A stretch of 64,000 bases of DNA. Origin: Spartobacteria bacterium (lineage in GTDB: Bacteria; Verrucomicrobiota; Verrucomicrobiia; Chthoniobacterales; Chthoniobacteraceae). Shown here in pieces: positions 13,011 to 32,177 of this stretch. How positions within the stretch are numbered: position 1 is the stretch's first letter; every line of letters starts with the position of its first letter. The translations under genes and the position numbers were made by a program. Under the pieces are notes generated by a model. It saw nothing but the letters and a program-made list of their open reading frames with translations, had not been told where the DNA came from and did no database searches. The DNA is taken from contig JAJPII010000002.1 in the NCBI GenBank assembly GCA_021324825.1, forward strand, positions 1-64,000, read 5' to 3'.

Positions 13011-13088
13011 AATGCCGTTCCCTCCGCGGCATCCCGCGAGGATGAGAGAAATTTATAGCAAGAGGCGCGCCGAAAACGCGCCCAAGCC

Positions 13089-14102
13089 TCAGATATCGCG
13101 TCCTACGACGGCTGCGACGGCGCGGATGCGTTGGACGAGGTCCTCAAATTCGCCCGGAAGGAGGGCTTGGTCGCCGTCGCTTTTGGAGAATTCGGGCGCG
13201 TTATGCACCTCGATCATGAGGGCGTCGGCGCCTGCCGCGACGGCCGCGAGGGCCATGGCTGGGATGTATTGGCGCACGCCCACGCCATGGGTCGGATCGA
13301 CAACCACGGGCAGATGGGTCTCGGCCTTCAACACGGGAACGGCGTTCAGGTCCAAGGTGTTGCGCGTGGCGGTCTCAAAAGTGCGGATGCCCCGCTCGCA
13401 CAGGAGGACATTGAAGTTCCCCTCATTGAGGATGTATTCGGCGCTCATCAGCAAATCCCGCACGGTGGCGCTCATGCCGCGCTTCAACATCACGGGCAGG
13501 CGGCTCCTGCCGACCTCCTTCAAGAGGGCGAAGTTCTGCATATTGCGCGTCCCGACCTGGAGGCAATCGGCATAGCGCTCGATGACTTCGAGGTCCTTCG
13601 TATCCATGATCTCGGTGATGACGGGGAGGCCCGTTTCCTCGCGCGCCTCGGCGAGCATCTTCAGGCCTTCCGGCCCCAGCCCCTGGAAGCTGTACGGAGA
13701 GGTGCGCGGCTTGAACGCCCCGCCCCGCAATATCCGGGCGCCAGCCTTTTTCACGTCGCGGGCGATGGAGGTGATTTGCTCGCGGGATTCGACCGAGCAC
13801 GGCCCGGACATGATGACGACTTCCTTGCCGCCGACCGGGACATCACCGACATTCACCAGGGAGGGCGTGCCGCGAAATTCGTAAGCGACCAGCTTGTAGG
13901 GCTTCAGGACGGGAGTGACGGAGTCGACTCCCGGTATGGCCGCGAGCGGTTTCTCGCGGATGGCGTCCTCCGGCCCTATGACGCCGATGACCACCCGCAC
14001 CGCGCCGCGGCTTATCTCCGCCTTCAAGCCCCACTCCTTGATGCGTTTGACGATGTGCGCGATCTGTTCCTCGGTCGCGTCTGGTTTGGTGACGATGATC
14101 AC
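13089..14102 (-). CDS. aroF: 3-deoxy-7-phosphoheptulonate (DAHP) synthase, type I-beta
   Basis: 337 residues. It condenses phosphoenolpyruvate and erythrose 4-phosphate in the first step of the shikimate pathway. Residues 1-70 are the small ferredoxin-like regulatory domain of the Thermotoga/Bacillus type ([20 protein letters not shown]). The barrel follows with [45 protein letters not shown] and DPTHGVGVR. Metal ligands Cys, His, Glu and Asp are in the expected motifs. It lies 36 bases after a tiny lipoprotein gene and may end the same operon. aroD lies 12.6 kb away, so the pathway is scattered. Confidence 0.95.
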
Positions 14103-14138
14103 ACGCCGCCTTTTCGTTATCCGGCAGGAAAGAAAAAA

Positions 14139-14276
14139 TCAGGCTGCCGGCAGCGGCGCGGGCTGTGCGGCCGGGACGTAGGTCTTCTTCGCGGGCGAAT
14201 AAAGCTCCCGGCGATTCGCGAGCGTGGAGCAGGAGCAAAGGGCGGCGGCTGCGAGGAGACAAACGAGAAATTTCAC
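14139..14276 (-). CDS. Very small lipoprotein (45 residues, GTG start)
   Basis: A short frame from GTG (14274-14276) to TGA (14139-14141) encodes MKFLVCLLAAAALCSCSTLA followed by a proline- and alanine-rich tail (YSPAKKTYVPAAQPAPLP). The signal sequence ends in LCSC, a usable lipobox with Cys16 as the lipidated residue. It fills the gap between rnd and aroF on the same strand. Anchored 20-30 residue proline-rich lipoproteins of this type are common in Verrucomicrobiota and Planctomycetes, by my recollection. Function is unknown. Support is the lipobox and position; there is no strong ribosome binding site. Confidence 0.55.
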   Translation of the reverse strand: MKFLVCLLAAAALCSCSTLANRRELYSPAKKTYVPAAQPAPLPAA

Positions 14277-14307
14277 CCCGCGAGTGAAGCAGTTCCGCCC
14301 CATCGTG

Positions 14308-15372
14308 TCAATGCGGGCGAAGAAGTTCCCGCTGCCACGGCAGCAACTTTTTCATGCCCTCTTCCGGGTCCGCTGCGAGGGCTTCCAAAGCGGCCTTCGG
14401 GGCGATCAACGAAGGGTCGAGGCGGAGTTCCGTTGCCGCCTGGTCGCGCCGGGTTTTCAACCCCCGGAAGCGTTCCTCTTCCTCCGGGGTGGGACGTTGA
14501 CGGGGGCGGAAAGGCCGGATGGGCCATTCGGACTCCGGCAGCGCGAGTGCGCCCTCCGCGGCGGAGAAGAAGCGCCGTTTGCGACCGCCGGAAAGATGGC
14601 GAAATTCCACGGTCTCGCCCCGGATCAAACGGGCGGCGGCCTCGACAAGCTCCTCGCTCCGAAGGATATGGAAGGCCGGGCGATCCACGGCCTTGGCTTC
14701 CTCCTCGCGCCAATGCCACAAGGCGCGCAGGACGGCCGCGCCCCGCTGGTCGAGATCGTTGCTGCCGGCGACGCGCCAGGCGTTTTCCACGTCGCGTTCG
14801 CGGGTGACGGCGGAACCCTGCGTCACCCGTTCGCACGATTCCCGAAACCAGCCAAGCCGCCCGAGGGCCGCGAGTTCGGCCTCCAGCTTTTCGGCGATTG
14901 CGAGGAGATACTGGGTGTCGTTGACCGCGTAGTCCGCCATCTTCCCGGAAAGCGGGCGCAGGCCCCAGTTGGCCTTCTGCGAGGACTTCGCGAGAACGAC
15001 TCCGAAGAAAGCCGTGACGAGCGCCGAAAGGCTGAACTCCAGGCGGCCCGTGAGGCGGGCGGCGATCATGGTGTCGAAGACCCGCCCGACGTTTTGCAGG
15101 CCGGCGCGGCGCAGCAGCCGCAGATCGTAGTCCGCGCCGTGGATGACGAGTTCCTTCGCCCCGAGGGATTCGAACAGGGGTTGCAACGGGAGTTCGCAGA
15201 GCGGGTCGATAAGGAAATTGCGCCCGGGAACGCTGATCTGGATGAGGCACAATTTCTCGAAATACGAATGGAGGCTGTCGGCCTCCGTGTCGATGGCGAT
15301 CCTGTCGAAGGGGGCCATAACCCCGACCGCGTCGGCCAGCCCGGCGGGCGTTGTTAGAAGCGGCTCGCTCAC
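14308..15372 (-). CDS. rnd: Ribonuclease D-like 3'-5' exonuclease with HRDC domain
   Basis: 354 residues. The DEDD-type exonuclease domain (about 20-190) carries IDTEAD (Asp28, Glu30), IHGADYDLRLL and YAVNDTQYL, the Y---D form of the third motif. An HRDC-like helical domain follows (about 200-280, LRALWHWREEEAKAVDRPAF). RNase D trims tRNA and other small RNA 3' ends. Its start overlaps the rho stop by four bases (15369-15372), so it probably follows rho in one transcript. Confidence 0.9.
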   Translation of the reverse strand: MSEPLLTTPAGLADAVGVMAPFDRIAIDTEADSLHSYFEKLCLIQISVPGRNFLIDPLCELPLQPLFESLGAKELVIHGADYDLRLLRRAGLQNVGRVFDTMIAARLTGRLEFSLSALVTAFFGVVLAKSSQKANWGLRPLSGKMADYAVNDTQYLLAIAEKLEAELAALGRLGWFRESCERVTQGSAVTRERDVENAWRVAGSNDLDQRGAAVLRALWHWREEEAKAVDRPAFHILRSEELVEAAARLIRGETVEFRHLSGGRKRRFFSAAEGALALPESEWPIRPFRPRQRPTPEEEERFRGLKTRRDQAATELRLDPSLIAPKAALEALAADPEEGMKKLLPWQRELLRPH

Positions 15373-16658
15373 CGCAACCCCGCGAGAAGCAACTCGGCGT
15401 TCGTCTTGGTCGCTTCCAGGTTTTTCAGGAGGACCTCCATCGCCTCGACGGGCGGCACGGAGGCGAGTTGCTTGCGCAGGACGTGGATGCGCTGCAATTC
15501 CTCGGGATGATAGAGCGACTCCTCGCGCCGCGTGGCGGAATTGAGGATTTGCACTGCCGGATAGATGCGTTTCTCGACGATGGAGCGGTCGAGATGGAGT
15601 TCCATGTTCCCCGTCCCCTTAAATTCTTCGAAGATGACGTCGTCCATGCGGCTCTCGGTTTCCACGAGCGCCGTGGCGAGGATGGTGAGGCTGCCCCCTT
15701 CCTCGACGTTGCGGGCGGCGCCGAAGAAGCGCTTCGGCTTCAGGAGCGCCTTGGCCTCGACGCCGCCGGACATGATCCTCCCCTTGGCGGGCTGGAGGGC
15801 GTTGTAACCGCGGGCCAGGCGCGTGATGCTGTCGAGCAGGATGACGACGTGCTTCTTCATTTCCACCAGGCGCTTGGCCCGGTCGCTGACGAGTTCGGCC
15901 ACCTGGATGTGCCGCACGGGCGTTTCGTCGAAGGTGGAGCTGTAGATTTCCGCGTTGACGCAGCGCTTGAGGTCGGTGACTTCCTCGGGCCGTTCGTCGA
16001 TGAGGAGCATGATGACGTGTATCTCCGGCGAACCCGCCCGGATGGCGCGGGCGATATCCCGCAAAAGGATCGTCTTGCCCGTGCGCGGCGGCGCGACGAT
16101 GAGACCGCGCTGGCCCCTGCCCAACGGGGCGATGAGATCGACCGCCCGGGCGCTGAGGGAGTTGGCGTACCGGTTTTCCAGGATGATGCGCTCGGTGGGA
16201 AACAGCGCCGTGAGATGCTCGAAGTCCTTGGTCTCCGTCCATGTCTCCGCAGGCTGCCCCTCGATGGCCGTGACCTGGTCGAGCGCCATGAATTTCTCCT
16301 TGTCCCGAGGGCCGCGCAGTGTGCCGCCGACGCGGTTGCCGTTGCGGAGGAAGAAGCGCTTTATCTGCGCGGTGGAGAGGTACACATCCTCCGGGCCGGG
16401 CCGGAAATCGAACCGGGGCCAGCGGAGAAACCCGTGGTTCTCGGCGGAAATCTCGGCCACGCCCTCCACCGTGGTGGGAATGCCCCGTTCCACCCGCGCG
16501 CGAAGGAGATCGAAGACAAGATGGCGCCGCGAACGCTCCGGGTTGTAACGAACGCCCAAGGCCCTGGCCTGCTCGGTCAGTTCGCCCAGCGGCGCGGCGT
16601 GGAGAGTGTCGAGGCTGTTCGGGCCGTCATCCATATTCGCGAAGGAGGCAGTCACCAA
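15369..16658 (-). CDS. rho: Transcription termination factor Rho
   Basis: 429 residues, close to the usual 420. It is the RNA-dependent hexameric ATPase that releases transcripts. An N-terminal helical and cold-shock-like RNA-binding part ([20 protein letters not shown]) precedes the ATPase core. That core has Walker [10 protein letters not shown], Walker [17 protein letters not shown], the Q-loop/R-loop region [20 protein letters not shown] and the arginine-finger area [11 protein letters not shown]. It overlaps coaE by 32 bases upstream and rnd by four bases downstream. Confidence 0.97.
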
Positions 16659-17229
16659 GAAGGATCGCCTGTTCCCGCAGGCAGGGGAGTCCGGCGTCGT
16701 TCCAGACCGCGTGATTCGCTTTTTCTATCTTCCACAATAAATCGAGTTGTGCGGCGAGCATGCCCAGGGCCGTCTCTTCATCCAGGGCGCGGATTTCACG
16801 CAGCCGCCGCCGCTGCGTTTCGGCGGCACAGGCCACGACCACGATCCTGTCAAAATGGGTTTCCGCGCCTGTTTCATAAAGCAAGGGTATGTCGACAATC
16901 AGCCACCGGTTTTCCGCCCGGGCGGTCTGGGCCAAGGCGGTCCATTTCGCCCGAATCCGGGGATGGAGGATGGTTTCCAAGGCCCGCCGTTGTTTTTCCT
17001 CGCGGAAAACCGCCGCTCGCAATCCGGGGCGGTCCAGCGCGCCGTCCGGCGAGAAGATCGTTTCGCCGAAATGCCGGGCGATCTCCTCGCGCGCCCCGGC
17101 GTCGCCCGCGATGACGGCGGCCGCCTCGCGGTCCGCGTCAAACAGTCCGGCGCCCAGCCTGGGCTGCAACTCGCGCGAAAAAGCTGTCTTGCCTGTTGCT
17201 ACTCCTCCTGTGATTCCCAGGATTGGCAC
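16627..17229 (-). CDS. coaE: Dephospho-CoA kinase
   Basis: 200 residues from a GTG start (17227-17229), chosen because the protein then begins with VPILGITGGVATGKTAFS, the normal CoaE N-terminus with its P-loop. Further family marks are LFDADREAAAVI, HPRIRAKW and VDIPLLYETGAE. It phosphorylates dephospho-CoA in the last step of coenzyme A synthesis. It starts 22 bases after the secretin-like gene stop and overlaps rho. Confidence 0.93.
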   Translation of the reverse strand: MPILGITGGVATGKTAFSRELQPRLGAGLFDADREAAAVIAGDAGAREEIARHFGETIFSPDGALDRPGLRAAVFREEKQRRALETILHPRIRAKWTALAQTARAENRWLIVDIPLLYETGAETHFDRIVVVACAAETQRRRLREIRALDEETALGMLAAQLDLLWKIEKANHAVWNDAGLPCLREQAILLGDCLLREYG

Positions 17230-17251
17230 GTCATGCCCAGCCCGGTGTTGC

Positions 17252-19903
17252 CTATTTTTGGAACAAGGGCGTTTCCAGCCCAGCCGGAGCGGGGGCTGTC
17301 TCCGGCGCGAGCGGCTCGACGACTTCTTCCTTCTCCTCATCGCCAACCTGGATCGGCTCGCCGGCGGGGTTGATCAGGCGGGCCGTGACGAAGATGATGA
17401 GGTTGACTTTGATGTGCTGATCCGCCGAGGAGCGGAAGAGCCTGCCGAAAACCGGCAGGTCGCCGAAGAAAGGAACCTTGTCATCCACTTTCTGGATGTC
17501 CTCGCGCATGAGGCCGCCGAGCACGACGGTCGCGCCATCCCAGACGGTGACGCTGGTCGTGACCTTGCGTGTGCTGAAGATGGGCTGGTTGATGACGTTC
17601 TGGGTCAGCACCACCGAAGCGTTGGCGGCGCCTGTGGCCGCGGCAATCGTGCTGCCCAGGCCGAGCAGGGAGGGGTTGATGGTGGAGATGGGGCTGCCGT
17701 AGTTGATGAAGCCCTCAAACTCGACCACCTGCGGAACAAGGGTCAGGTCGATGGTGTAGCCATCCGGCCCGACGGTCGGGTCGACTTCGAGGGTGACGCC
17801 CGTGTTGCGTGTTTCGAAAGCCGTGGGGGTCGTGGGTGTGACGGGGAAGACCGCTATGGTCGCGTTGGAACCGATCCCGGACGTCGAGCCGCCGAAGTTG
17901 GTGGGAATCTTCGGCGGATCAAACTCCGTGGGGTAACGGAATTCGCGGATGATCTCGATGGTCGCGCGCTGGCCGCTCTTGGTGGTGATGCTCGGCGAGG
18001 AGAGCAGGTCCACGCCTTTCTTCTGGTTCAAGGCGCGCATGACGACCTGGAATTGCGGCTGGGTGAAGACGCCCGCCAGGCCCAGGATGGCCGGACTGAC
18101 GGAACTGATGCCGCTCGTGGGGGATAGCAGCGAATTGATCGCATCGTTGGCGATCGCGTTGCTGCCGGCGCGGTTCCCCGCCGTGAGGGGGAACTGGCCG
18201 ATGGGGGTGGAACTGCCGGGCGGGGTGAAGGGATAATCCGCCGGGTTGACGGTGGTGCCGTTGCCGACGGTGCCGCCGCCGCCGAAGACGCCCCCGCCGA
18301 GGCTGAACTGCCCGAGGAGAGTATCGAAGCTCAGTTCCTTGAGGTTGGTCTGCTGGATTTCGACGAACTTGGATTCGATGGTGACCTGGGACGGCGACTG
18401 GCTTTCAACCAGCGTATCGATCAAGTCGAGCGCTTCCTGCGTGTTGCGGACGATGAGGCGGCTGCCGCTCGGTATATAAACCGCGCTGGAGCCGGGGGGG
18501 AAGACGACGCCCTGCTGTTCCAGGAAGTCTTTGGCCTGCGTCCGCGCGCCGATGGTGTTGCCCGCGTTGGTGGCTTCCGGCGCGGACCCGGTCCGCGTGC
18601 CGCCGCCGCCCGTCGTCGGGCCGCCCGAAAGGGCGCCGGAGTTGGCGGTGTTCGCCGAGACGGGAATGAAGCTGGGAGGCACCCGGTATTCCTTGGTGAC
18701 GAGAATGTCCGTGGGCTCCGAGAGCGGCACGATGGATACCGCGTAAGGTTCGATCTTGATCTTGAGACTGGCGAGATTGGTGATGTAGCGCAGCGCTTCC
18801 ATGAGCGGGATTTCATTCAGGGAAAGCGTGATGCGCGTATCCGCCGCGGATATCGCGGGGCCGGTGGAGGCAACGGGCGCCGTCGTGCCGGTGTCCACGC
18901 CCGGGATCGCGGGAAGCGCCGGCGCCGCGGCCGCCGGCGGAGGCACAACTGCTCCGGAGGAACCTGTGTCGAGTTTCAACACGATGTTTACGCCGCGCTT
19001 GGTGGGATCCGGCTCGCTGGTGTCGAGGGTCACGCTCTTTTGCTTCAGGAAGTCGATCGCCTCGCGCACGGTGGCGTCCTTAAGCTCGACCTTCGGGATG
19101 ATGATGCGGTTGAGCTTGTTGGTGATGTAGTCGGTGCTGCGGGCGCTGGTGGTGACGGGGGGGCCGATGATCTCGTTCTTGCCGTACTTATGGATGGGCG
19201 ATTCCCATTCCTGGTCCACCTGGGCGATCATGCGCGAGCGGTGCTCGTCATAAGCATGGTGGTAATACTCGTCCTTCGCGTGGTTGACCTGTTCCTCGCC
19301 TTTGCGGGCGGCGATGTTGTACGGGTCGAGGTTCAGTATCTGCTCGTAACGCTTCATCGCGAGGTCATAGCGCCCGGTGTCGTAGAAGCCCTTGGCATCG
19401 ACGAACCATTGCTTTACCTGGTCGACGTTGGCGTGGAATTTCGGGGTGATTGTCTTGTTGTAAAAATCCGGCTCCTGGAGGCGTGCGAGCAGCCGTTTGG
19501 CTTCCATGCAATCCGGGTCGTAACGGTCGTCCAGAACGAGCTTGGCGGTGTTCTGGGCGTCGACGATTCTCCCCTCGGCGATGCGCTCTTCGGCGAGCTT
19601 GACGCTGGCGACGCAGAAGCCGTCCAGCGCGCGCTGGCGCAAGGCGTGCGTGGAAGGCGCGTCGTGCAGGAGATCGACGGCCGTCCTGTATTGGGTGACG
19701 GCGATCTCGTAATCCTTCTTCTTCATCGCCTTGTCGCCTTCCGCTATCGCCGCCTTGGCGCGCGAAGCGTATTCCTCGCGGCGGGCGATTTCGCTTTCGG
19801 CGACGCCCCTGACGGAGGTTTCCGTATAGGCGCTGACGACCGAGGAGGCGGAGGTTGCGGCCAGGCAGAGGACGCAAAGCGTGCGAAGTGGAGATTTTAT
19901 CAT
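17252..19903 (-). CDS. Amuc_1098-family type IV pilus-like outer membrane protein (secretin)
   Basis: 883 residues. Signal peptide (1-25), then a TPR-like helical region (about 40-240; AKAAIAEGDKAMKKKDYEIA, RYDLAMKRYEQILNLDPYN). Secretin N-type domains follow (about 265-420; KLNRIIIPKVELKDATVREA, a proline/alanine/threonine linker, TLSLNEIPLMEALRYI). The secretin core (about 500-860) includes VTIESKFVEIQQTNLKELSF, a glycine-rich gate region, LLSSPSITTKSGQRATIEI and VVLGGLMREDIQ. It would form the outer membrane channel of the pilus-like complex encoded upstream. Long compared with GspD (about 650-700) because of the TPR extension. Last of the five cluster genes. Confidence 0.93.
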   Translation of the reverse strand: MIKSPLRTLCVLCLAATSASSVVSAYTETSVRGVAESEIARREEYASRAKAAIAEGDKAMKKKDYEIAVTQYRTAVDLLHDAPSTHALRQRALDGFCVASVKLAEERIAEGRIVDAQNTAKLVLDDRYDPDCMEAKRLLARLQEPDFYNKTITPKFHANVDQVKQWFVDAKGFYDTGRYDLAMKRYEQILNLDPYNIAARKGEEQVNHAKDEYYHHAYDEHRSRMIAQVDQEWESPIHKYGKNEIIGPPVTTSARSTDYITNKLNRIIIPKVELKDATVREAIDFLKQKSVTLDTSEPDPTKRGVNIVLKLDTGSSGAVVPPPAAAAPALPAIPGVDTGTTAPVASTGPAISAADTRITLSLNEIPLMEALRYITNLASLKIKIEPYAVSIVPLSEPTDILVTKEYRVPPSFIPVSANTANSGALSGGPTTGGGGTRTGSAPEATNAGNTIGARTQAKDFLEQQGVVFPPGSSAVYIPSGSRLIVRNTQEALDLIDTLVESQSPSQVTIESKFVEIQQTNLKELSFDTLLGQFSLGGGVFGGGGTVGNGTTVNPADYPFTPPGSSTPIGQFPLTAGNRAGSNAIANDAINSLLSPTSGISSVSPAILGLAGVFTQPQFQVVMRALNQKKGVDLLSSPSITTKSGQRATIEIIREFRYPTEFDPPKIPTNFGGSTSGIGSNATIAVFPVTPTTPTAFETRNTGVTLEVDPTVGPDGYTIDLTLVPQVVEFEGFINYGSPISTINPSLLGLGSTIAAATGAANASVVLTQNVINQPIFSTRKVTTSVTVWDGATVVLGGLMREDIQKVDDKVPFFGDLPVFGRLFRSSADQHIKVNLIIFVTARLINPAGEPIQVGDEEKEEVVEPLAPETAPAPAGLETPLFQK

Positions 19904-19989
19904 GGTTGGCTGGGGTGTGGTATGGAGCGCAAGATCTGACCGGTAATCTAACGTAAATCTTAAGGAAGGAGGCGCCCCCGAAGCGTCCG

Positions 19990-20952
19990 CTAATGAGCTT
20001 TTTCAGCCCCGGAAGAGGTAACGTTCAGGTTTTCCCCCGTCTTCAAGTTTTGTATTAGGGCGTGTGCGGCGTCGATGTCAATCAATTTATATTGGACAGT
20101 GGGTTCGGGATTGATGGAAAAAGCTTTATCTTTCTTGACCTGGATATCGGTCGAGCCTCTCCACAGGTATTTGAAGAGACCAAAGGAGTCGGGCGAATCG
20201 ATGACTTTGTCCAAAATGAGCGTCAGATTTTGCTGGGTCTCGATGTTCTGGATCGTCAATTCGGAGTCGTCGATACCCACGCCGTTCGCGTCGGTGTGGG
20301 TCTTCTTGTCGAACTTGATGATCTTGAATTTGGTTCCGAGAATCTGGTCGCCGGCTTTCAGGAACTGGCTCGGCTGGCGGACGTCGATGGTGTTGATCTG
20401 GAAGGTGTCCGCGTCATACGCCGCGAATTTGAGCCGGAAGGGGATTTTGATGAAACGCGCCAGCCGTAGCTTGGTCCAATAAGGGGGATGCGAGTTGGGG
20501 TCGTTGGGATCGCAATTCCATTTCCATTTTTCAAGATTGGAGAATCCGTCCGAGCTCGGGTCGTCTTCCAGGGCGTTCGGGTCGAGGGGGTCGAGGTTAT
20601 GCTCGTAAAACCAGTCGTTGGGGATGGGCGGATGGAATTGGAAGGGGGTGGTCTTTGGGTTGACCAGCTTGATGGCTCCCGCTACGCGGTAGAGAATATA
20701 GGCTTGGGAAACGTAGAGGGAACTGGGATAAGTCTTCCACGCGGGCGGGTTCAGGGCTTCCTGCTTGGCGGTCTTGATCCTGGCGGCGTCGGAAGGAGGT
20801 ATCGCGCGGTTTATCTTCACCTCGCCGCCGATCCGGGCGAAGATGTCGGAGAACGCTTGGGCGCGCAGGATGAGAAAGGTCGCCACTCCGCAAAGAAGCG
20901 CGGAGAAGCATATCAGGATGAATTGCTCGTAGTTTTTTTTAAGCCACTGCAT
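19990..20952 (-). CDS. Amuc_1099-family pilus-like system protein
   Basis: 320 residues with a single N-terminal membrane anchor (FILICFSALLCGVATFLI, about residues 11-28) and a large periplasmic region without enzyme motifs. It contains the sequence NLDPLDPNALEDDPSSDGFS followed by NLEKW, a calcium-binding-like Asp-rich stretch typical of verrucomicrobial envelope proteins. Assignment rests on its place between the Amuc_1100 and Amuc_1098 family genes and on its size. It is probably a periplasmic connector of the pilus-like machine. Confidence 0.85.
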   Translation of the reverse strand: MQWLKKNYEQFILICFSALLCGVATFLILRAQAFSDIFARIGGEVKINRAIPPSDAARIKTAKQEALNPPAWKTYPSSLYVSQAYILYRVAGAIKLVNPKTTPFQFHPPIPNDWFYEHNLDPLDPNALEDDPSSDGFSNLEKWKWNCDPNDPNSHPPYWTKLRLARFIKIPFRLKFAAYDADTFQINTIDVRQPSQFLKAGDQILGTKFKIIKFDKKTHTDANGVGIDDSELTIQNIETQQNLTLILDKVIDSPDSFGLFKYLWRGSTDIQVKKDKAFSINPEPTVQYKLIDIDAAHALIQNLKTGENLNVTSSGAEKAH

Positions 20953-20982
20953 GGTTTAAACTTGGTTTAAACTGGTTCAAAC
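20952..20982. repeat. Three tandem ten-base repeats between two pilus-like genes
   Basis: TGGTTTAAAC occurs at about 20952-20961 and 20963-20972, and a variant TGGTTCAAAC follows at 20973-20982. Together they fill most of the 34-base gap upstream of the Amuc_1099-family start. On the coding strand this is GTTTAAACCA-type sequence directly before the ATG. It may reflect slippage or a small regulatory site. Confidence 0.6.
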
Positions 20983-20986
20983 TGAT

Positions 20987-21898
20987 TTAGGCGCCCGGCG
21001 CGGGGGTTGCGAATTCCACGATGTCGATGCGCATGACGACGCTGATGGATTCCTTGCCAAGAACGAATTCGATGGCGTTTTTCTCACCCTCCTGGCTGAC
21101 GCCGGCCAGGCCGTCCGGCTTGGGAGTGCCGGGCGGGCCCGCTTCGGCGGTTTCGCGAGGGGGGCCCTTGGTCTTGGAATTCGTTATCGCCAGGGTGCGG
21201 ACGACAAAAAACTGATCCTTGCTGTGAACAATGCTATTCAGGAACCGCCTGAATTGGTTCTGGCCGCCCGTGAACTGCACTTCAAACGGGTAATAGGAAA
21301 CCAGGGGCGAACCGGCCCCGGGTTTTGCCCCCTTGGCGGGAGCCGCGGGCTGCGCGCCGCTTTCCTCGACCAGCGGCGTCCTGTTCACCGAGACGATGGA
21401 GGAGACTTTGGAGTCGAGCAATTCGTTCAGGATGATCTGGACGCCCTTCAATTGCCGGTCAAGCGGCGACGCGGCGGCGTCGGAGGGCGGGGAATCCCGA
21501 TAGGCGTCGAAACCGAGGTAGAAATTCTGCGGCAGTTTCAGCCCGCCCGCGACGGCTTTGCCGACATAGTCGGCGGCTGCTTCTTTGAGTTCCTCCTGAA
21601 ACTGGGGGGGGGTCATCGGTTGCAAGCGCCGGTTCCATGCGGTGAGGCTTGCCTGGAGATCGGCGGAGTCGCGCGCATAGACGTCGCGCTGGGCTTTGTA
21701 GGCTTTCAGGTTGGCGTCGTCGGGGTAGGGAACAAGGGTTTGCAGTCTTACGAGTTCGGTCGCCTGTTTTTCATAGTCGTCGGAGGTGTCGGAGTAGGCC
21801 GACCAGGAGGTATAGAGCAGATACCCCAGCCCGATGACCGCAACGGCCATGAAAGCGAAGAAGCCCGCCAGGAATTTGTTATTTCGCGCCCAGGTCAT
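20987..21898 (-). CDS. Amuc_1100-family pilus-like protein
   Basis: 303 residues (Akkermansia Amuc_1100 is about 317). One N-terminal membrane segment (FLAGFFAFMAVAVIGLGYLL, residues 8-30) is followed by a coiled stretch (DTSDDYEKQATELVRLQ) and a periplasmic PilO-like alpha/beta domain (YYPFEVQFTGGQNQFRRFLN). In Akkermansia the corresponding protein is an outer-surface pilus-associated protein that signals through TLR2. No host role can be inferred here. Its start overlaps the stop of the Amuc_1101-family gene by 20 bases. Confidence 0.9.
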   Translation of the reverse strand: MTWARNNKFLAGFFAFMAVAVIGLGYLLYTSWSAYSDTSDDYEKQATELVRLQTLVPYPDDANLKAYKAQRDVYARDSADLQASLTAWNRRLQPMTPPQFQEELKEAAADYVGKAVAGGLKLPQNFYLGFDAYRDSPPSDAAASPLDRQLKGVQIILNELLDSKVSSIVSVNRTPLVEESGAQPAAPAKGAKPGAGSPLVSYYPFEVQFTGGQNQFRRFLNSIVHSKDQFFVVRTLAITNSKTKGPPRETAEAGPPGTPKPDGLAGVSQEGEKNAIEFVLGKESISVVMRIDIVEFATPAPGA

Positions 21899-23609
21899 TC
21901 CAGTTGATCGCTTTTTTCAGTTTCAGGTCGAATTCGTAGGGAAAAGCCCAGTCCGACTTCGTCGGCTCGACGCGGACGGGGTTTACCTCCACGAGTTTCG
22001 TCAGGTCGATTGTGAAATAAGGGGATGCGGCCAGATTCGTAAGGTATTCGTGGACGATCTCCAGGCCCTTTGGATTATCCGGGTCCTCGATGTATAAACC
22101 GCGAAGGCGCAGGCCGGGAACGCCCTTCCCGTTGATGGGGTTCGCCACGCCCTTGCCGTCGCCGCCGACGGATATCATGGCCGGCTCCATCTGGGTGACC
22201 CAGATGAATTTCTTTGGCAGCCGCAAATTCAAGTCGTCGATGATCCGCACCCAGAATTCCCGTTCCTCGACCGCCTGCTGGAAGGGCGCGGTCTGTTGCT
22301 TGATGCCCTGGATTTCCTTCGTCACGGCGTCGAGACGGGTCTGGAAGCTCGTCAAAGTGGCGACCTTCGGCTTGAGGGGATTTTCCAGCACGGCCTTTTC
22401 CACCTGGGCGGCGCGGTCGTAGTAGAGCCAGAGGCCGAGAAGGCAGAGCAGGCCGCAGACGCCCGCGAGGACGATGAAGGGGCGGCGCTCGGCAAGCTGC
22501 TGGTTTCGGATGACGCTGGCCGGGAGCAGGTTCAGCTCCATCGGGCATTCGCTGATGGAGTGCAGGGCGAGGCCGACGAGTTCGCCCATGAAGTGGGCGC
22601 TCTTGGCGAGTTCCTCCGGCGGGACGGAGCCGGCCATGGAGACGTTGCTGAAGGGGGTGAAGAACTCGACTGGAAGCTGGAGTTTTTCCTGGAAGAATTC
22701 CCGCATGTATGGGAGGCTTGTCGAGCCGCCGCAGAGGAAGACCTGGGAGGGCTGGTCGCCGTGCTGCTGGGCGCGGTAGAAGGTGATGGAGCGGGAGATT
22801 TCCCCGTGGAGCCGGGTCATCGTGTTGCGGATGACCTTGGAGACGCGGGCGACATCCGGGTCCGACGGCTCGGCGTACGAGCCGCCCAGGCTCACGAAGC
22901 CGGAGGTCTTCTTCCGCGCCTCGGCGGCGCTGAACGGCTCGTTGAAATCCTTGGCGATGGCCGCGGTGATGGTCGTGCCGCCGATCTGGATGCTGCGGGT
23001 GAAGACCTTGGGCGCATCGACGAAGATGAGGTTCGTGGTGCGCGCGCCGATGTCGATCAAGAGCGAACAGCCGGTGCGGTCGCTGCAATTGTAGCGAAAG
23101 GAGTTGTAGAGAGCCATCGGCGCCACGTCGACGACGGCGGTGGCGAGGCCGGAACTCTCGACGCTGGCGTTGATGTCGTCGAGCAGATCGGCCTTGATGG
23201 CGACGAGGACGACTTCCAGTTTGTTGTCGTGGCTGGGGCCTTCCACGAGCTGGTAATCCCACACGACTTCATTGATCGGGAAGGGGACGTTTTGCTGCGC
23301 CTCAAACGTGATGATCTGCTCGACCTGGCTCTCCTCGACCGGGGGGAGCTTCACGAAACGGGTGAAGACCGATTGCCCGGCGATGGCGTAGTTCACCTTG
23401 CCGCTCTTCAGGTTCAGGGATGCCATCATCTCCTGGATGGCGATCCTCGACTGCGGGATGCGGGAGGCTTCGGCCGCCGGGTCGGCCAGCAACTCTGTTA
23501 TTCGGAAGCCTTGAAGAACGAGGCCGCCCTTTTCGCCCGTCTTGAACTCAGCCAGACTAATTGTCTGCGTGCCGAGGTTCAGTGCCAGGATGCGGGTCGG
23601 CGCGGGCAT
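21879..23609 (-). CDS. Amuc_1101-family PilM-like ATPase fused to a PilN-like anchor
   Basis: 576 residues. The N-terminal 350 form an actin/FtsA-like PilM fold, with phosphate-1 strand LNLGTQTISLAEF, LLIDIGARTTNLIFVD as phosphate-2 and VFLCGGSTSLPYM as the adenosine motif. A membrane segment (PFIVLAGVCGLLCLLGLWLYY, about 376-397) and a periplasmic PilN-like region with a coiled start follow. Proteobacterial systems use separate PilM and PilN, so this is a natural fusion. It would sit under the inner membrane and hold the Amuc_1099/1100 proteins. It begins 33 bases after the Amuc_1102-family stop. Confidence 0.9.
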   Translation of the reverse strand: MPAPTRILALNLGTQTISLAEFKTGEKGGLVLQGFRITELLADPAAEASRIPQSRIAIQEMMASLNLKSGKVNYAIAGQSVFTRFVKLPPVEESQVEQIITFEAQQNVPFPINEVVWDYQLVEGPSHDNKLEVVLVAIKADLLDDINASVESSGLATAVVDVAPMALYNSFRYNCSDRTGCSLLIDIGARTTNLIFVDAPKVFTRSIQIGGTTITAAIAKDFNEPFSAAEARKKTSGFVSLGGSYAEPSDPDVARVSKVIRNTMTRLHGEISRSITFYRAQQHGDQPSQVFLCGGSTSLPYMREFFQEKLQLPVEFFTPFSNVSMAGSVPPEELAKSAHFMGELVGLALHSISECPMELNLLPASVIRNQQLAERRPFIVLAGVCGLLCLLGLWLYYDRAAQVEKAVLENPLKPKVATLTSFQTRLDAVTKEIQGIKQQTAPFQQAVEEREFWVRIIDDLNLRLPKKFIWVTQMEPAMISVGGDGKGVANPINGKGVPGLRLRGLYIEDPDNPKGLEIVHEYLTNLAASPYFTIDLTKLVEVNPVRVEPTKSDWAFPYEFDLKLKKAINWNDLGAK

Positions 23610-23642
23610 GAAGGAGGATATAGGAGGATATGCGAGCGGTGC

Positions 23643-24206
23643 TTAGTGGGCGGGTTTGAGCGCCTCGTATCGATCCCAATAAAGCGGGGCGAAAGGCGTC
23701 TCGCTCTTGTTAAGAACCATCCCGGTGGTCTGCTGCATGGTCTGCCACCATTCGCGATTCTGCGCAAACTTGAAACTCTTCTCCGCCACGACCTGGCCCT
23801 TGTTCAGAATCTGTACGCCGACGTTCTGGACCTCGGCGCCGGTGAGCGGGCGGTTGTCGAGCAGCCGCATGATTGTCCGCGGCGAGACGTAGACCACCGA
23901 ATAGAGTTCGCGGCCGGCGGGGACGTCGACGTGGGTCACATCGCCGGCCAGCAGTTTCCCGGCGAAGAGGATGTAATACTTGAACTGGAGTTCATCCGTG
24001 GATACCGGACGCGCCTGGAACTGGACTTCGACCTCGAGCCAGCGCCCGGGATCGGGGGTGCGTTTATCCGACATGCCGAAGTCGGGCGTGCGGACGACCT
24101 CGGGCGAGATCCTCGTTATCGAGTAGTCGCCGCGTTGCGCGAGGGCCGCGCCGGTCGAACCCAGGAAAAGAAGGAGGAGAAGGAGGGAAGCTCTGGTTGA
24201 TCTCAT
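23643..24206 (-). CDS. Amuc_1102-family pilus-like protein
   Basis: About 187 residues from ATG 24206, giving MRSTRAS and a signal sequence LLLLLFLGSTGAALAQ. An upstream in-frame ATG at 24236 adds ten serine-rich residues and is less likely. The mature part is beta-rich with no enzyme motif (YSITRISPEVVRTPDF, RWLEVEVQFQARP, REWWQTMQQTTGMVLNKSETP). It is the first gene of the five-gene pilus-like cluster. A periplasmic or surface role is likely, but the precise one is unknown. Confidence 0.87.
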   Translation of the reverse strand: MRSTRASLLLLLLFLGSTGAALAQRGDYSITRISPEVVRTPDFGMSDKRTPDPGRWLEVEVQFQARPVSTDELQFKYYILFAGKLLAGDVTHVDVPAGRELYSVVYVSPRTIMRLLDNRPLTGAEVQNVGVQILNKGQVVAEKSFKFAQNREWWQTMQQTTGMVLNKSETPFAPLYWDRYEALKPAH

Positions 24207-24305
24207 AGGGAGGGGGGAGGAGGAGGATGAACTCATCCAGATAGGGGTTTAAGACACTCTCGCGCCGTCCGCTAGCCTAAAATGCGCGCCGAAGGAAAAA
24301 AGTCC

Positions 24306-25256
24306 TTATCCCAAGCGGGACCGGAAGTAGTCGATGGTGAGCCTGATGCCTTCCTCGAACTCGATCTTCGGCTCCCAGCCAAGGACCTTCTTGGCGCGCG
24401 AAATGTCCGGCTGGCGAACCTTGGGATCGTCGACAGGAAGCGATTTGTGCTCGAGCGAGAGGTTCACCCCCATGATGCGGATGATCTCCTCGGCAAATTG
24501 TTTGATCGTCATCTCGCGCGGGTTGCCGATGTTGACGGGCTCGTGGAATTTGCTCATGGCGAGTTTGTAGATGCCGTCGATCAAATCGGAGACGTAACAG
24601 AAGCTGCGCGTCTGGCTGCCGTCGCCAAAGATGGTGAGCGGCACGCCGTTGAGCGCCTGCCCTATGAATGCGGGCACCACGCGGCCATCCGCCAGGCGCA
24701 TGCGAGGGCCGTACGTGTTGAAGATGCGGACGATCTTCGTATCGACGTGGTGGTAGCGGTGGTAAGCCATCGTCATCGCCTCGGCGAAACGCTTCGCCTC
24801 GTCATAAACGCCGCGCGGCCCTATCGGATTCACGTTGCCCCAGTAGTTCTCGTTCTGCGGATGCTCCAGCGGGTCGCCGTAGGTTTCCGAAGTGGAGGCC
24901 AGGAGGAAGGTGGCCCGCTTGTCCTTCGCGAGGCCGAGGGCGTTGTGCGTGCCGAGCGCGCCGACCTTCAAGGTGGGAATCGGCAGTTCCAGATAATCAA
25001 TGGGGCTGGCCGGCGAGGCGAAGTGGAAGACGAAGTTGATGTCATCGGGCACGAAGAGGTACTGGGTCACGTCCTGGCGGATGAAGCGGTAATTCTCGTT
25101 GCCCGCCAGGTGCTCGATGTTCGCGGGATCGCCGGTGATGAAGTTGTCGATGGCGATGACGCGGTGCCCTTCCTTCAACAGGCGATCCGTCAGGTGCGAG
25201 CCGAGAAAACCGGCGCCGCCGGTGACGAGTGAGGTGAGCTGCCGGGAGAATTTCAT
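24306..25256 (-). CDS. UDP-glucuronate decarboxylase-type NAD-dependent sugar epimerase
   Basis: 316 residues, an extended short-chain dehydrogenase. The Rossmann motif is [12 protein letters not shown], Asp binds the ribose in [11 protein letters not shown], and Ser/Tyr/Lys lie in [12 protein letters not shown] and [11 protein letters not shown]. The motifs [12 protein letters not shown] and [10 protein letters not shown] are typical of UXS, which converts UDP-glucuronate to UDP-xylose. It precedes nothing cotranscribed downstream. The sugar transferase gene lies 32 bases upstream in the same direction, suggesting an exopolysaccharide pair. Confidence 0.9.
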
Positions 25257-25288
25257 TGGTTGTTCTTTCTAAGTTGGATGCGCGAAAG

Positions 25289-26677
25289 TCATCTCGCGCC
25301 AAGGCCGAGGATTACCACAGGAATCGTTTTGAGCAAGATTTTCAGATCGAGCCAGATCGACCAATTATCAATGTATTTCAAATCGAGCCGCACCCATTCC
25401 TTGAAGTCATTCACCTCGTTGCGTCCGCTTACCTGCCACAGGCAGGTCAACCCGGGCTTCACGCTCAGCCTGCGGCGTTGCGCGGCGCTCTCGAATTTCT
25501 CGACTTCATAGACGGGCAGCGGGCGCGGCCCCACGAGGCTCATGTGGCCCTGGAGGACGTTGATGAGCTGGGGCAGCTCGTCGATGCTCGTCATCCGCAG
25601 CCACCGCCCGAAACGGGTTACGCGCGGGTCGCCGTCCACCTTGAACACCGGGCCGGACATCTCGTTGTGCGGTTCCAGTTCGGAGCGCCGCGACTCGGCG
25701 TTCGTGTGCATGGAGCGAAATTTATACATGAGGAAGGGTTTGCCGTGCTTGCCCGCGCGCCATTGGCGGAAAACAACCGCCCCCGGAGAGGTGAGCAGGA
25801 TGCCTGCCGCCGCCACGGTGAAGACGGGCGAAAGCAGCACGAGCGCGGCCAGCGCGCCCGCGAAGTCCATCGCGTTCTTCAAGAGGAGCGCCCATGACAT
25901 GACGGGCGTGGTGCGGAAGACGATCATGGGACGCGTCCCGAGGAGTTCGAAGTCCGGCCGGGCGATGGATGTCTTGACGAAATCGGCCACGAGCCACGCC
26001 TCGACCCCCTCTATCTCGCATGCTGCTATCGCTTCCTGCAGCCGGTCGAGATGCCCGTGCCCGCCCGCGAAGAAAACGCGGCTCACGGCGTGGTTGTGCA
26101 GCGCCTCGACCAGCGCGCCGGTCGGCTGCGTCTCGATATCGAACTCGGCGATGATCTCGATGTTCATCCGCGGATCGTCCGCGAAGGTCCGGCGCAGTTG
26201 CCGCATATCCGCGGGCACGCCCGCCAGCAGGACGTTCTCGCGGAAGCGCCCCCTCTTCGCCCAGTGCTTGACATAGTGGTTCGTGACGCGTTCCCGGGCG
26301 AAAAGGAAGGTTGCGCCGAGGCCGAAAAACGTGAGCACGACCGCCCGGCTGGGAAAATCCAGGCGCAGAAACACCACGCAACCGGCGACGAGCAGGCAGA
26401 ACCAGAATGCCGCCATCGCCATCTGGGAAAAGGATTTCCAGGCGGTCTTTTGCAGCGGGTGGCTGTAGAAACCCTGAAGCTCGAGGATGATGGGGCCGAA
26501 CGGCACGATGATGAAGAGGAGCCACCTGAACTCCGAAAAGGGAAGGATGGGCCGGTTGCGGAACCACGTTATCTCGTGATAGCGGAGCGTGTGCGCGGCC
26601 CAGAAGGCCAGCACGAGGAGCGCGCCGTCCAGGATTTGCTGGAACTGCACGTTGAGGTCTTGTTTTCGCCCGAGCAT
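25289..26677 (-). CDS. Exopolysaccharide polyprenyl-phosphate sugar transferase
   Basis: 462 residues. Four N-terminal membrane segments (about 15-120), a CoA-binding-like Rossmann region (ENVLLAGVPADMRQLRR), a fifth membrane segment (about 265-290) and the C-terminal bacterial sugar transferase domain. That domain has VVFRQWRAGKHGKPFLMYKF, a PRVTRFGRWLRMTSIDELPQ core and VKPGLTCLWQVSGRN. It transfers the first sugar phosphate to undecaprenyl phosphate for extracellular polysaccharide assembly. Its start lies only 18 bases from the divergent aroD start, so promoters must overlap or reach into coding sequence. Confidence 0.92.
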   Translation of the reverse strand: MLGRKQDLNVQFQQILDGALLVLAFWAAHTLRYHEITWFRNRPILPFSEFRWLLFIIVPFGPIILELQGFYSHPLQKTAWKSFSQMAMAAFWFCLLVAGCVVFLRLDFPSRAVVLTFFGLGATFLFARERVTNHYVKHWAKRGRFRENVLLAGVPADMRQLRRTFADDPRMNIEIIAEFDIETQPTGALVEALHNHAVSRVFFAGGHGHLDRLQEAIAACEIEGVEAWLVADFVKTSIARPDFELLGTRPMIVFRTTPVMSWALLLKNAMDFAGALAALVLLSPVFTVAAAGILLTSPGAVVFRQWRAGKHGKPFLMYKFRSMHTNAESRRSELEPHNEMSGPVFKVDGDPRVTRFGRWLRMTSIDELPQLINVLQGHMSLVGPRPLPVYEVEKFESAAQRRRLSVKPGLTCLWQVSGRNEVNDFKEWVRLDLKYIDNWSIWLDLKILLKTIPVVILGLGAR

Positions 26678-26695: not shown

Positions 26696-27427
26696 ATGCC
26701 TTCGGTGGAAATAGCCAATGTTTTGTCATGCGGCGGCTGCGTTGTGGGCGCGGTGCATACGCCGGCGGGCCTCCGCGAGGCCTTGCGGCTGCGGCGCGGC
26801 GCCGTCGATTTCCTGGAGATCCGCGCGGACGCTTTCGCCGGCCAGGAGGCGCGGTTGCTCGCAAAACTGCCCGCTCTCGCCGCTCCTCTTATAGTGACCG
26901 CCCGCCATCCCCTGGAAGGAGGGGGTGGCGCCCTGTCCGCCGCGCGCCGGGTCGGGCTTCAGGAGACATTCCTCCCGCACGCGGCGTTGATCGACGTGGA
27001 ACTTCGTTCGCTTGGGCCGATGCAAGGAGTCATCCGGCAGGCCCGGGCCGCCGGGGTAGGCGTCATCCTTTCCCATCACGACTTTAAAAAAACGCCGTCC
27101 GCCGCCGTTCTCCGCAAACTGGCTCTCCGCGCCGCCGAAGCCGGGGCGGATGTCTTCAAGGTCGCCGCCTTCACCGGCGCCGTCCGGGACTTGCGGGTGC
27201 TGCTCGACTTTCTGGATGGGGAAAAAAGAGTTCCTCTCAGCGTCATGGGGATGGGGCCGTTCGGCAAAATCTCCCGGCTGCTTTTCGCCCGGGCGGGTTC
27301 CGTTTTGAATTACGGATTTTTGGATCAAAGCCAGGTTGCCGGGCAATGGCCCGCGGGGTTGTTGAAGGAGCGGATCGCCGAGATTACGTCTGGCTGTGCG
27401 TCTGCGCGGGATGCAGCACCCGCATGA
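26696..27427 (+). CDS. aroD: Type I 3-dehydroquinate dehydratase
   Basis: 243 residues, class I barrel enzyme of the shikimate pathway using a Schiff-base lysine. Family marks are VDFLEIRADAF, LIVTARHPLEGG, catalytic His in ILSHHDFKKTP, Schiff-base Lys in ADVFKVAAFTG and SVMGMGPFGKISR. The N-terminus before VVGAVHTP is longer than needed, so a GTG nearer to that motif could be the true start and would ease the 18-base gap to the divergent gene. Its 3' end overlaps the convergent receiver gene by 44 bases. Confidence 0.92.
   Translation: MPSVEIANVLSCGGCVVGAVHTPAGLREALRLRRGAVDFLEIRADAFAGQEARLLAKLPALAAPLIVTARHPLEGGGGALSAARRVGLQETFLPHAALIDVELRSLGPMQGVIRQARAAGVGVILSHHDFKKTPSAAVLRKLALRAAEAGADVFKVAAFTGAVRDLRVLLDFLDGEKRVPLSVMGMGPFGKISRLLFARAGSVLNYGFLDQSQVAGQWPAGLLKERIAEITSGCASARDAAPA

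Positions 27428-30428: not shown

Positions 30429-32177
<1,749 letters not shown>

Follow-up and report, generated by a model that had tools for sequence, protein, structure and literature searches.

Behind the secretin gene of the Amuc_1098-1102 cluster of Akkermansia muciniphila, also termed MUL2, lie coaE and rho. A cluster of the same five families in the same order is the subject of the present analysis. It is found in a Spartobacteria bacterium (Verrucomicrobiota; GenBank assembly GCA_021324825.1), within the first 64 kb of contig JAJPII010000002.1 (here contig C17), and this whole stretch is referred to as the window. The genome comprises 3.30 Mb in 47 contigs and is 94.6% complete. The five genes probably encode a pilMN-O-P-Q base, the half that spans the envelope in a type IVa pilus machine split into two loci, with the motor half in trans.

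In the part of PMC10688800 available, the A. muciniphila cluster is called a type IV pili gene cluster, and a personal communication is cited that places Amuc_1100 on pili; an available passage of PMC11573778 names Amuc_1100 PilO. The available passages of PMC6828834 and PMC9415379 describe the cluster without a motor, and the literature passages on the cluster leave any PilB, PilC or pilin of A. muciniphila unnamed. A literature search for a pilus motor of A. muciniphila or the Verrucomicrobia returned nothing relevant; most subscription papers lay outside its coverage, so a motor may already have been published. Gut and aquatic Akkermansiaceae have been reported to carry the amuc_1099-1102 locus alongside genes for dephospho-CoA kinase, rho, 3-dehydroquinate dehydratase and a secretion-channel protein (PMC13174399). 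The same paper describes a role in glycan uptake or attachment for A. muciniphila and its aquatic relatives and proposes particle attachment for the locus; in its account, conservation is lower in Chthoniobacterales, and the locus goes undetected in Methylacidiphilales. The window holds a complete five-gene member, probably from Chthoniobacterales, and a type I 3-dehydroquinase is also encoded nearby (26696-27424). To this printed picture, the present analysis adds a motor and pilin row in trans, the phylum-wide co-occurrence and spread of the two halves, and a calcium-type loop in Amuc_1099.

Compared with A. muciniphila, the window genome belongs to a different order, its proteins are shorter and its Amuc_1099 loop is degenerate; rnd follows rho in the window, and no rnd was seen in stretch L177 of A. 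muciniphila. A first-pass annotation of the window had spoken of the Akkermansia order, but A. muciniphila (genome G113) shares only the class of the window genome. The classical type IVa systems of Pseudomonas, Thermus and Myxococcus (pilMNOPQ with PilB, PilC and PilT) share with the window genome the M-N-O-P-Q order, the PilM fold, a secretin, and PilB, PilT, PilC and prepilins in the genome. Unlike these systems, the window has PilM and PilN fused, a TPR region on its secretin, the extra protein Amuc_1102 and a motor in trans, and its Amuc_1100 and Amuc_1099 are unrecognised by PilO and PilP models. All five families score above their own curated NCBIfam cut-offs and lie on one strand:

23643..24236, minus strand: Amuc_1102 (NF042424, 117 bits, cut-off 55; PDB 7dsz, expectation value (E) 5.5e-14)
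21879..23609, minus strand: Amuc_1101, whole gene (NF045709, 663 bits, cut-off 650)
22554..23609, minus strand: PilM part of Amuc_1101, residues 1-352 (PilM_2, 133.5 bits; structure model; PDB 5eoy, 5eou, 2ych)
21879..22553, minus strand: PilN-like part of Amuc_1101, residues 353-576 (ELNLLP stretch, transmembrane helix, long helix, small alpha/beta domain)
20987..21898, minus strand: Amuc_1100, PilO position (NF038287, 258 bits, cut-off 180; PDB 6kny, E 6e-15; weak GspM match)
19990..20952, minus strand: Amuc_1099, PilP position (NF042425, 190 bits, cut-off 50; structure model)
20527..20562, minus strand: thrombospondin type 3 like loop of Amuc_1099, residues 131-142, DPSSDGFSNLEK, degenerate in the window copy
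17252..19903, minus strand: Amuc_1098 secretin, PilQ position, with an N-terminal TPR region (NF042912, 911 bits, cut-off 750; Secretin, 111 bits; TPR_11)

The first-pass identification of the five families, followed by coaE, rho and rnd, is borne out, and the failure of profile searches to match the Amuc families, which it had named as a contrary result, did not occur. Residues 1-352 of Amuc_1101 have a modelled PilM fold (predicted local distance difference test score (pLDDT) 88.7), with Pseudomonas PilM structures 5eoy and 5eou as the top PDB matches and Thermus 2ych also matched. Directly past the PilM part, the window protein reads CPMELNLLP and continues with the transmembrane helix, the long helix and the small alpha/beta domain. 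PilN binds PilM through an N-terminal stretch of this NLLP type, and 5eou is titled as a PilM:PilN1-12 complex. Among 47 Amuc_1101 homologues, a loose pattern picks out an NLLP-like stretch in 32, and six match Pfam PilN (best E 1.1e-4). Amuc_1101 is PilM joined to PilN, as the first-pass annotation had proposed in describing a PilM-like ATPase fused to a membrane PilN-like part. Against the T2SSL model it reaches only 13.3 bits (cut-off 25.5), compared with 133.5 bits for PilM_2, so the cytoplasmic domain is not of the GspL type.

The secretin with a TPR extension is likewise confirmed in Amuc_1098, where TPR matches lie around residues 173-199 and the Secretin domain is matched; the PilQ model TIGR02515 scores 96 bits, under its own cut-off of 284. 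Its closest named relatives are from Spartobacteria (60% identity) and Chthoniobacterales (53%). Amuc_1100 has one N-terminal hydrophobic transmembrane helix and a periplasmic remainder, and the Amuc_1099 model (pLDDT 90.3) consists of one transmembrane helix, a loop and two beta domains. Amuc_1102, of 197 amino acids, has a Sec-type N-terminus; neither a Pfam match in the scan of the window protein nor a prepilin motif was found, and it is probably an accessory part of the machine. Its open reading frame contains an inner ATG at 24206, the position at which the first-pass annotation had ended the gene. The structure alignments (A2-A4) used 48, 46 and 46 sequences from 57, 54 and 55 usable homologues.

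PilB/PilT, PilC and N-methyl prepilin matches are all absent from contig C17. The first-pass statement that no pilin, PilB or PilC is present thus holds locally, but it does not extend to the genome, since the search that it had itself suggested found all of them on other contigs. The window genome has 12 ATPase matches above the PilB/PilT family cut-off and a thirteenth under it, ten PilC-domain matches in five frames, 18 prepilin motifs, four secretins and two PilM proteins. A row on contig C34 reads pilB-pilT-pilB-pilC-prepilin, and M, N, O, P and Q genes are absent from the stretch examined around it; its prepilin, directly behind pilC, also matches T2SSG. With a prepilin peptidase on contig C15, the genome encodes PilB, PilT, PilC, prepilin and prepilin peptidase, the set expected of a type IVa pilus machine. 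As far as can be judged from the genome sequence, the C34 row would be a pilus operon elsewhere that uses the window proteins, an outcome that the first-pass annotation had named as contrary to its own view. Two further clusters (C3 and C16), each with a secretin of its own and GspE-/GspF-like genes, look like type II secretion systems. The genome encodes six PilT-size ATPases, on C34 (L015), C15 (L020), C25 (L021) and C47 (L022), with head-to-tail pairs on C15 and C25.

The two halves also occur together across the phylum. In a sample of 145 Verrucomicrobiota genomes, Amuc_1101 was scored as present at E <1e-20 and C34-type PilC at a score of at least 354 bits, the next best matches reaching at most 303. 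Both were present in 122 genomes and neither in 18, and five were split (21 genomes lack Amuc_1101 and 20 lack PilC; Fisher p 6e-18, a value that ignores kinship). The joint absences are spread over seven families, and family f8 alone includes nine genomes with both, four with neither and one split. Moreover, the halves are joined in a few loci. In L173, the order 1102-1101-1100-1099-1098-1098-pilB-pilB-pilT-pilC runs on one strand; in L174, 1102-1098 come after prepilins and pilB-pilT-pilB-pilC, again with a single strand for all; and in L148, the halves are convergent and 2.2 kb apart. PilT is present in all three and in the C34 row, which speaks for a pilus over type II secretion. The five genomes of family f16 (G003, G029, G032, G081 and G130) have four to 14 Amuc_1098-profile matches and PilT at E <=4.4e-130, without Amuc_1101 or C34-type PilC; in this family, the dominant pilus or secretion system may be of another type.

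The gene order of the base itself was followed in 80 named loci; the second, distant secretin of L116 was left out. All four partners (1102, 1101, 1100 and 1099) stand upstream of the secretin in 50 of the 56 loci with at least 5.5 kb of upstream sequence, including all seven testable loci of Chthoniobacterales-type title. Tandem Amuc_1098-type secretins follow 1099 in eight of the 80 (L101, L102, L104, L107, L118, L145, L146 and L150) and occur in three further stretches (L173, L176 and L182); these perhaps form mixed or alternative secretin rings. A fused double secretin suspected in genome G078 was rejected, as a stop separates two genes that share a frame.

A. muciniphila has the same division. 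The identity of genome G113 was established by its Amuc_1102, which shows no mismatch to the crystal sequence 7dsz over residues 32-246. Four ATPases lie above the cut-off, two of PilB type and two of PilT type, and this search found exactly one PilC, inside a pilB-pilB-pilC-prepilin row; there are seven prepilin motifs. Both of its two secretins belong to the Amuc_1098 family, the second copy lying away from the cluster (L178). Among the families searched, A. muciniphila has neither another motor for the 1098-1102 base nor another base for the pilB-pilB-pilC motor. Its parts are located as follows:

near 1.31 Mb: base
1.904-1.909 Mb: pilB-pilB-pilC-prepilin
near 0.203 Mb: two PilT genes

In the proposed machine, Amuc_1101 would supply PilM and PilN in one protein, Amuc_1100 would be PilO-like, Amuc_1099 would take the PilP position and Amuc_1098 would be the PilQ secretin, giving the M-N-O-P-Q order with Amuc_1102 as an accessory. 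The motor half would come from the C34 row and the prepilin peptidase from C15. The PilB-type ATPases, acting with PilC, would extend the fibre with pilins and PilT would withdraw it, with the PilM-N/O/P cage keeping motor and gate aligned and the TPR-secretin letting the fibre exit. We infer that the two halves assemble physically, that a fibre is formed and retracted, that PilO and PilP roles fall to Amuc_1100 and Amuc_1099, and that the machine may be used for adhesion, uptake or movement.

Several observations weigh against this assignment. Pfam models recognise neither Amuc_1100 as PilO nor Amuc_1099 as PilP, so both names rest on position and build. For the Amuc_1099 model, Foldseek gave no PDB match at E 0.001 (best 0.04) and VIA-align none with Z of at least 5; PilP/GspC is not among the fold matches listed for it, which settles neither the presence nor the absence of a PilP fold. 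To our knowledge, Amuc_1102 has no counterpart in classical pili. Five genomes are discordant, G040 and G060 having only Amuc_1101, and G108, G121 and G133 only PilC. The halves lie within about 20 kb of each other in only two of the 145 genomes, which is near chance expectation, and the joined loci are therefore valued for their operon-like order and not for their number. The C34 motor has another possible partner on contig C22 (L023 8817-11187), where a second PilM-family protein stands with a weak GspM-like gene, a secretin being absent from the 18 kb examined. Finally, immunofluorescence puts Amuc_1100 outside the cell (PMC5332112), a signal that a PilO-like inner-membrane protein would not explain.

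Some features of the system are shared with type II secretion (GspL-GspM-GspC-GspD), in which one protein, GspL, spans PilM-like and PilN-like parts. The fused Amuc_1101 resembles GspL in layout, there are weak GspM and GspL matches, and the prepilin behind pilC also matches T2SSG. These likenesses, together with the mucin-uptake role given to the locus in PMC13174399, would suit a machine that takes up or secretes glycans or proteins, near the MUL2 view, in which the motor and prepilins would power a short pseudopilus without producing a long pilus. That explanation is unlikely: PilT is encoded in the partner row of the window genome and at three other loci, the cytoplasmic part of the window Amuc_1101 is clearly of PilM type and its GspL match far under the cut-off, and the genome has separate type II-like clusters. 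Pili-like structures have, furthermore, been observed on A. muciniphila (cited in PMC5332112). The lack of motor and pilin genes on contig C17 could also indicate an envelope complex that is pilus-like but has no motor and is built from the Amuc_1098-1102 proteins themselves. Such a complex is highly improbable given that both this genome and A. muciniphila encode a motor and pilins in trans, and given the joint presence and absence of Amuc_1101 and PilC and the clear PilM and secretin homology; it was rejected after scans of the window genome and of the phylum. The first-pass suggestion that the machine may not make classical pili is not supported, in view of the same motor and pilins, the co-occurrence and the joined clusters on one strand (L173 and L174).

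Housekeeping genes follow the secretin gene of the window:

16627..17229, minus strand: coaE, dephospho-CoA kinase, with a likely GTG start at 17229 (Pfam CoaE, 132 bits)
15369..16658, minus strand: rho (NF006886, 559 bits; Pfam match)
14308..15372, minus strand: rnd-like 3'-5' exonuclease (Pfam DNA_pol_A_exo1, 110 bits, and HRDC; TIGR01388, 184 bits, under its cut-off of 299)

From Amuc_1102 to rnd, the successive gaps are 33, -20, 34, 86, 22, -32 and -4 bases, and the next gene, for DAHP synthase, begins 205 bases after rnd. A consensus scan of 12800-25400 found no sigma-70-like site and 12 terminator-like sites against 14.7 expected. The overlaps to which the first-pass annotation had drawn attention are real, all gaps are <90 bases, and a single transcript from Amuc_1102 to rnd is plausible from the spacing. 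A stronger version would place coaE-rho-rnd and the pilus base on a single regulated transcript that serves a common function, such as tying the amount of pili to growth; it would draw on this spacing and on the wider gene order. The synteny of coaE and rho with the cluster, which the first-pass annotation had proposed comparing, was found in part: among the 57 loci with at least 2.5 kb of downstream sequence and a partner gene or the contig start just upstream, both genes lie within 1.1 kb in 30, rho lies at 1.1-6 kb in 10 (loci titled Kiritimatiellia, Kiritimatiellae and Lentisphaerae among them), and 17 have no rho nearby; rnd is near in 26. In L160, the one locus of these 10 that was read in detail, a 5'-3' exonuclease and a membrane protein precede coaE, which still overlaps rho. 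The coaE-rho pair also exists as a unit apart from the pilus genes. With these exceptions, a shared function is distinctly improbable, and the link looks like an old gene order kept by descent, which indicates no shared function.

Pfam TSP3_bac, a model of bacterial thrombospondin type 3 repeats, matches the Amuc_1099 loop in 23 of 49 homologues. The motif DxDxDG[FYW] occurs in 44 of the 49, and a second, differently drawn pattern in 39. Thrombospondin type 3 repeats bind calcium. The loop of the window protein has S and K at two normally acidic positions, and a Pfam scan of this protein gave no match, TSP3_bac included; calcium use through the loop would be least certain in the window genome itself. 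One tentative and rather doubtful proposal extends the pilus-base assignment to the whole phylum. Amuc_1098-1102, the probiotic protein Amuc_1100 included, would not be the pilus across the Verrucomicrobiota but a divergent, calcium-tuned pilus base, in which assembly would respond to calcium through the TSP3 loop of Amuc_1099 at the PilP position. The prepilin behind pilC would then be the true major pilin, in A. muciniphila too, making a host-contacting fibre.

Two sugar genes lie immediately upstream of the cluster on the same strand (24309-26677, minus). One codes for a bacterial sugar transferase and the other for an NAD-dependent epimerase/dehydratase; the latter, epimerase-like gene has matches in 17 loci, the window included. 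An Rfam 5_ureB_sRNA match (RF02514) at 31700-32013 on the plus strand, with 77.8 bits against a gathering score of 40, may be nothing more than an echo of conserved urease coding sequence.

The spread of the two halves across the phylum indicates a machine that predates life in the gut. The ancestral, non-host role suggested in the first-pass annotation is plausible in that the locus extends far beyond the gut species, but the idea is largely in print already for aquatic Akkermansiaceae (PMC13174399). Amuc_1100 and its neighbours have been studied as host-acting, pili-like proteins, and the parts list of A. muciniphila makes the question of whether they are the pilus or its base testable by knockout.

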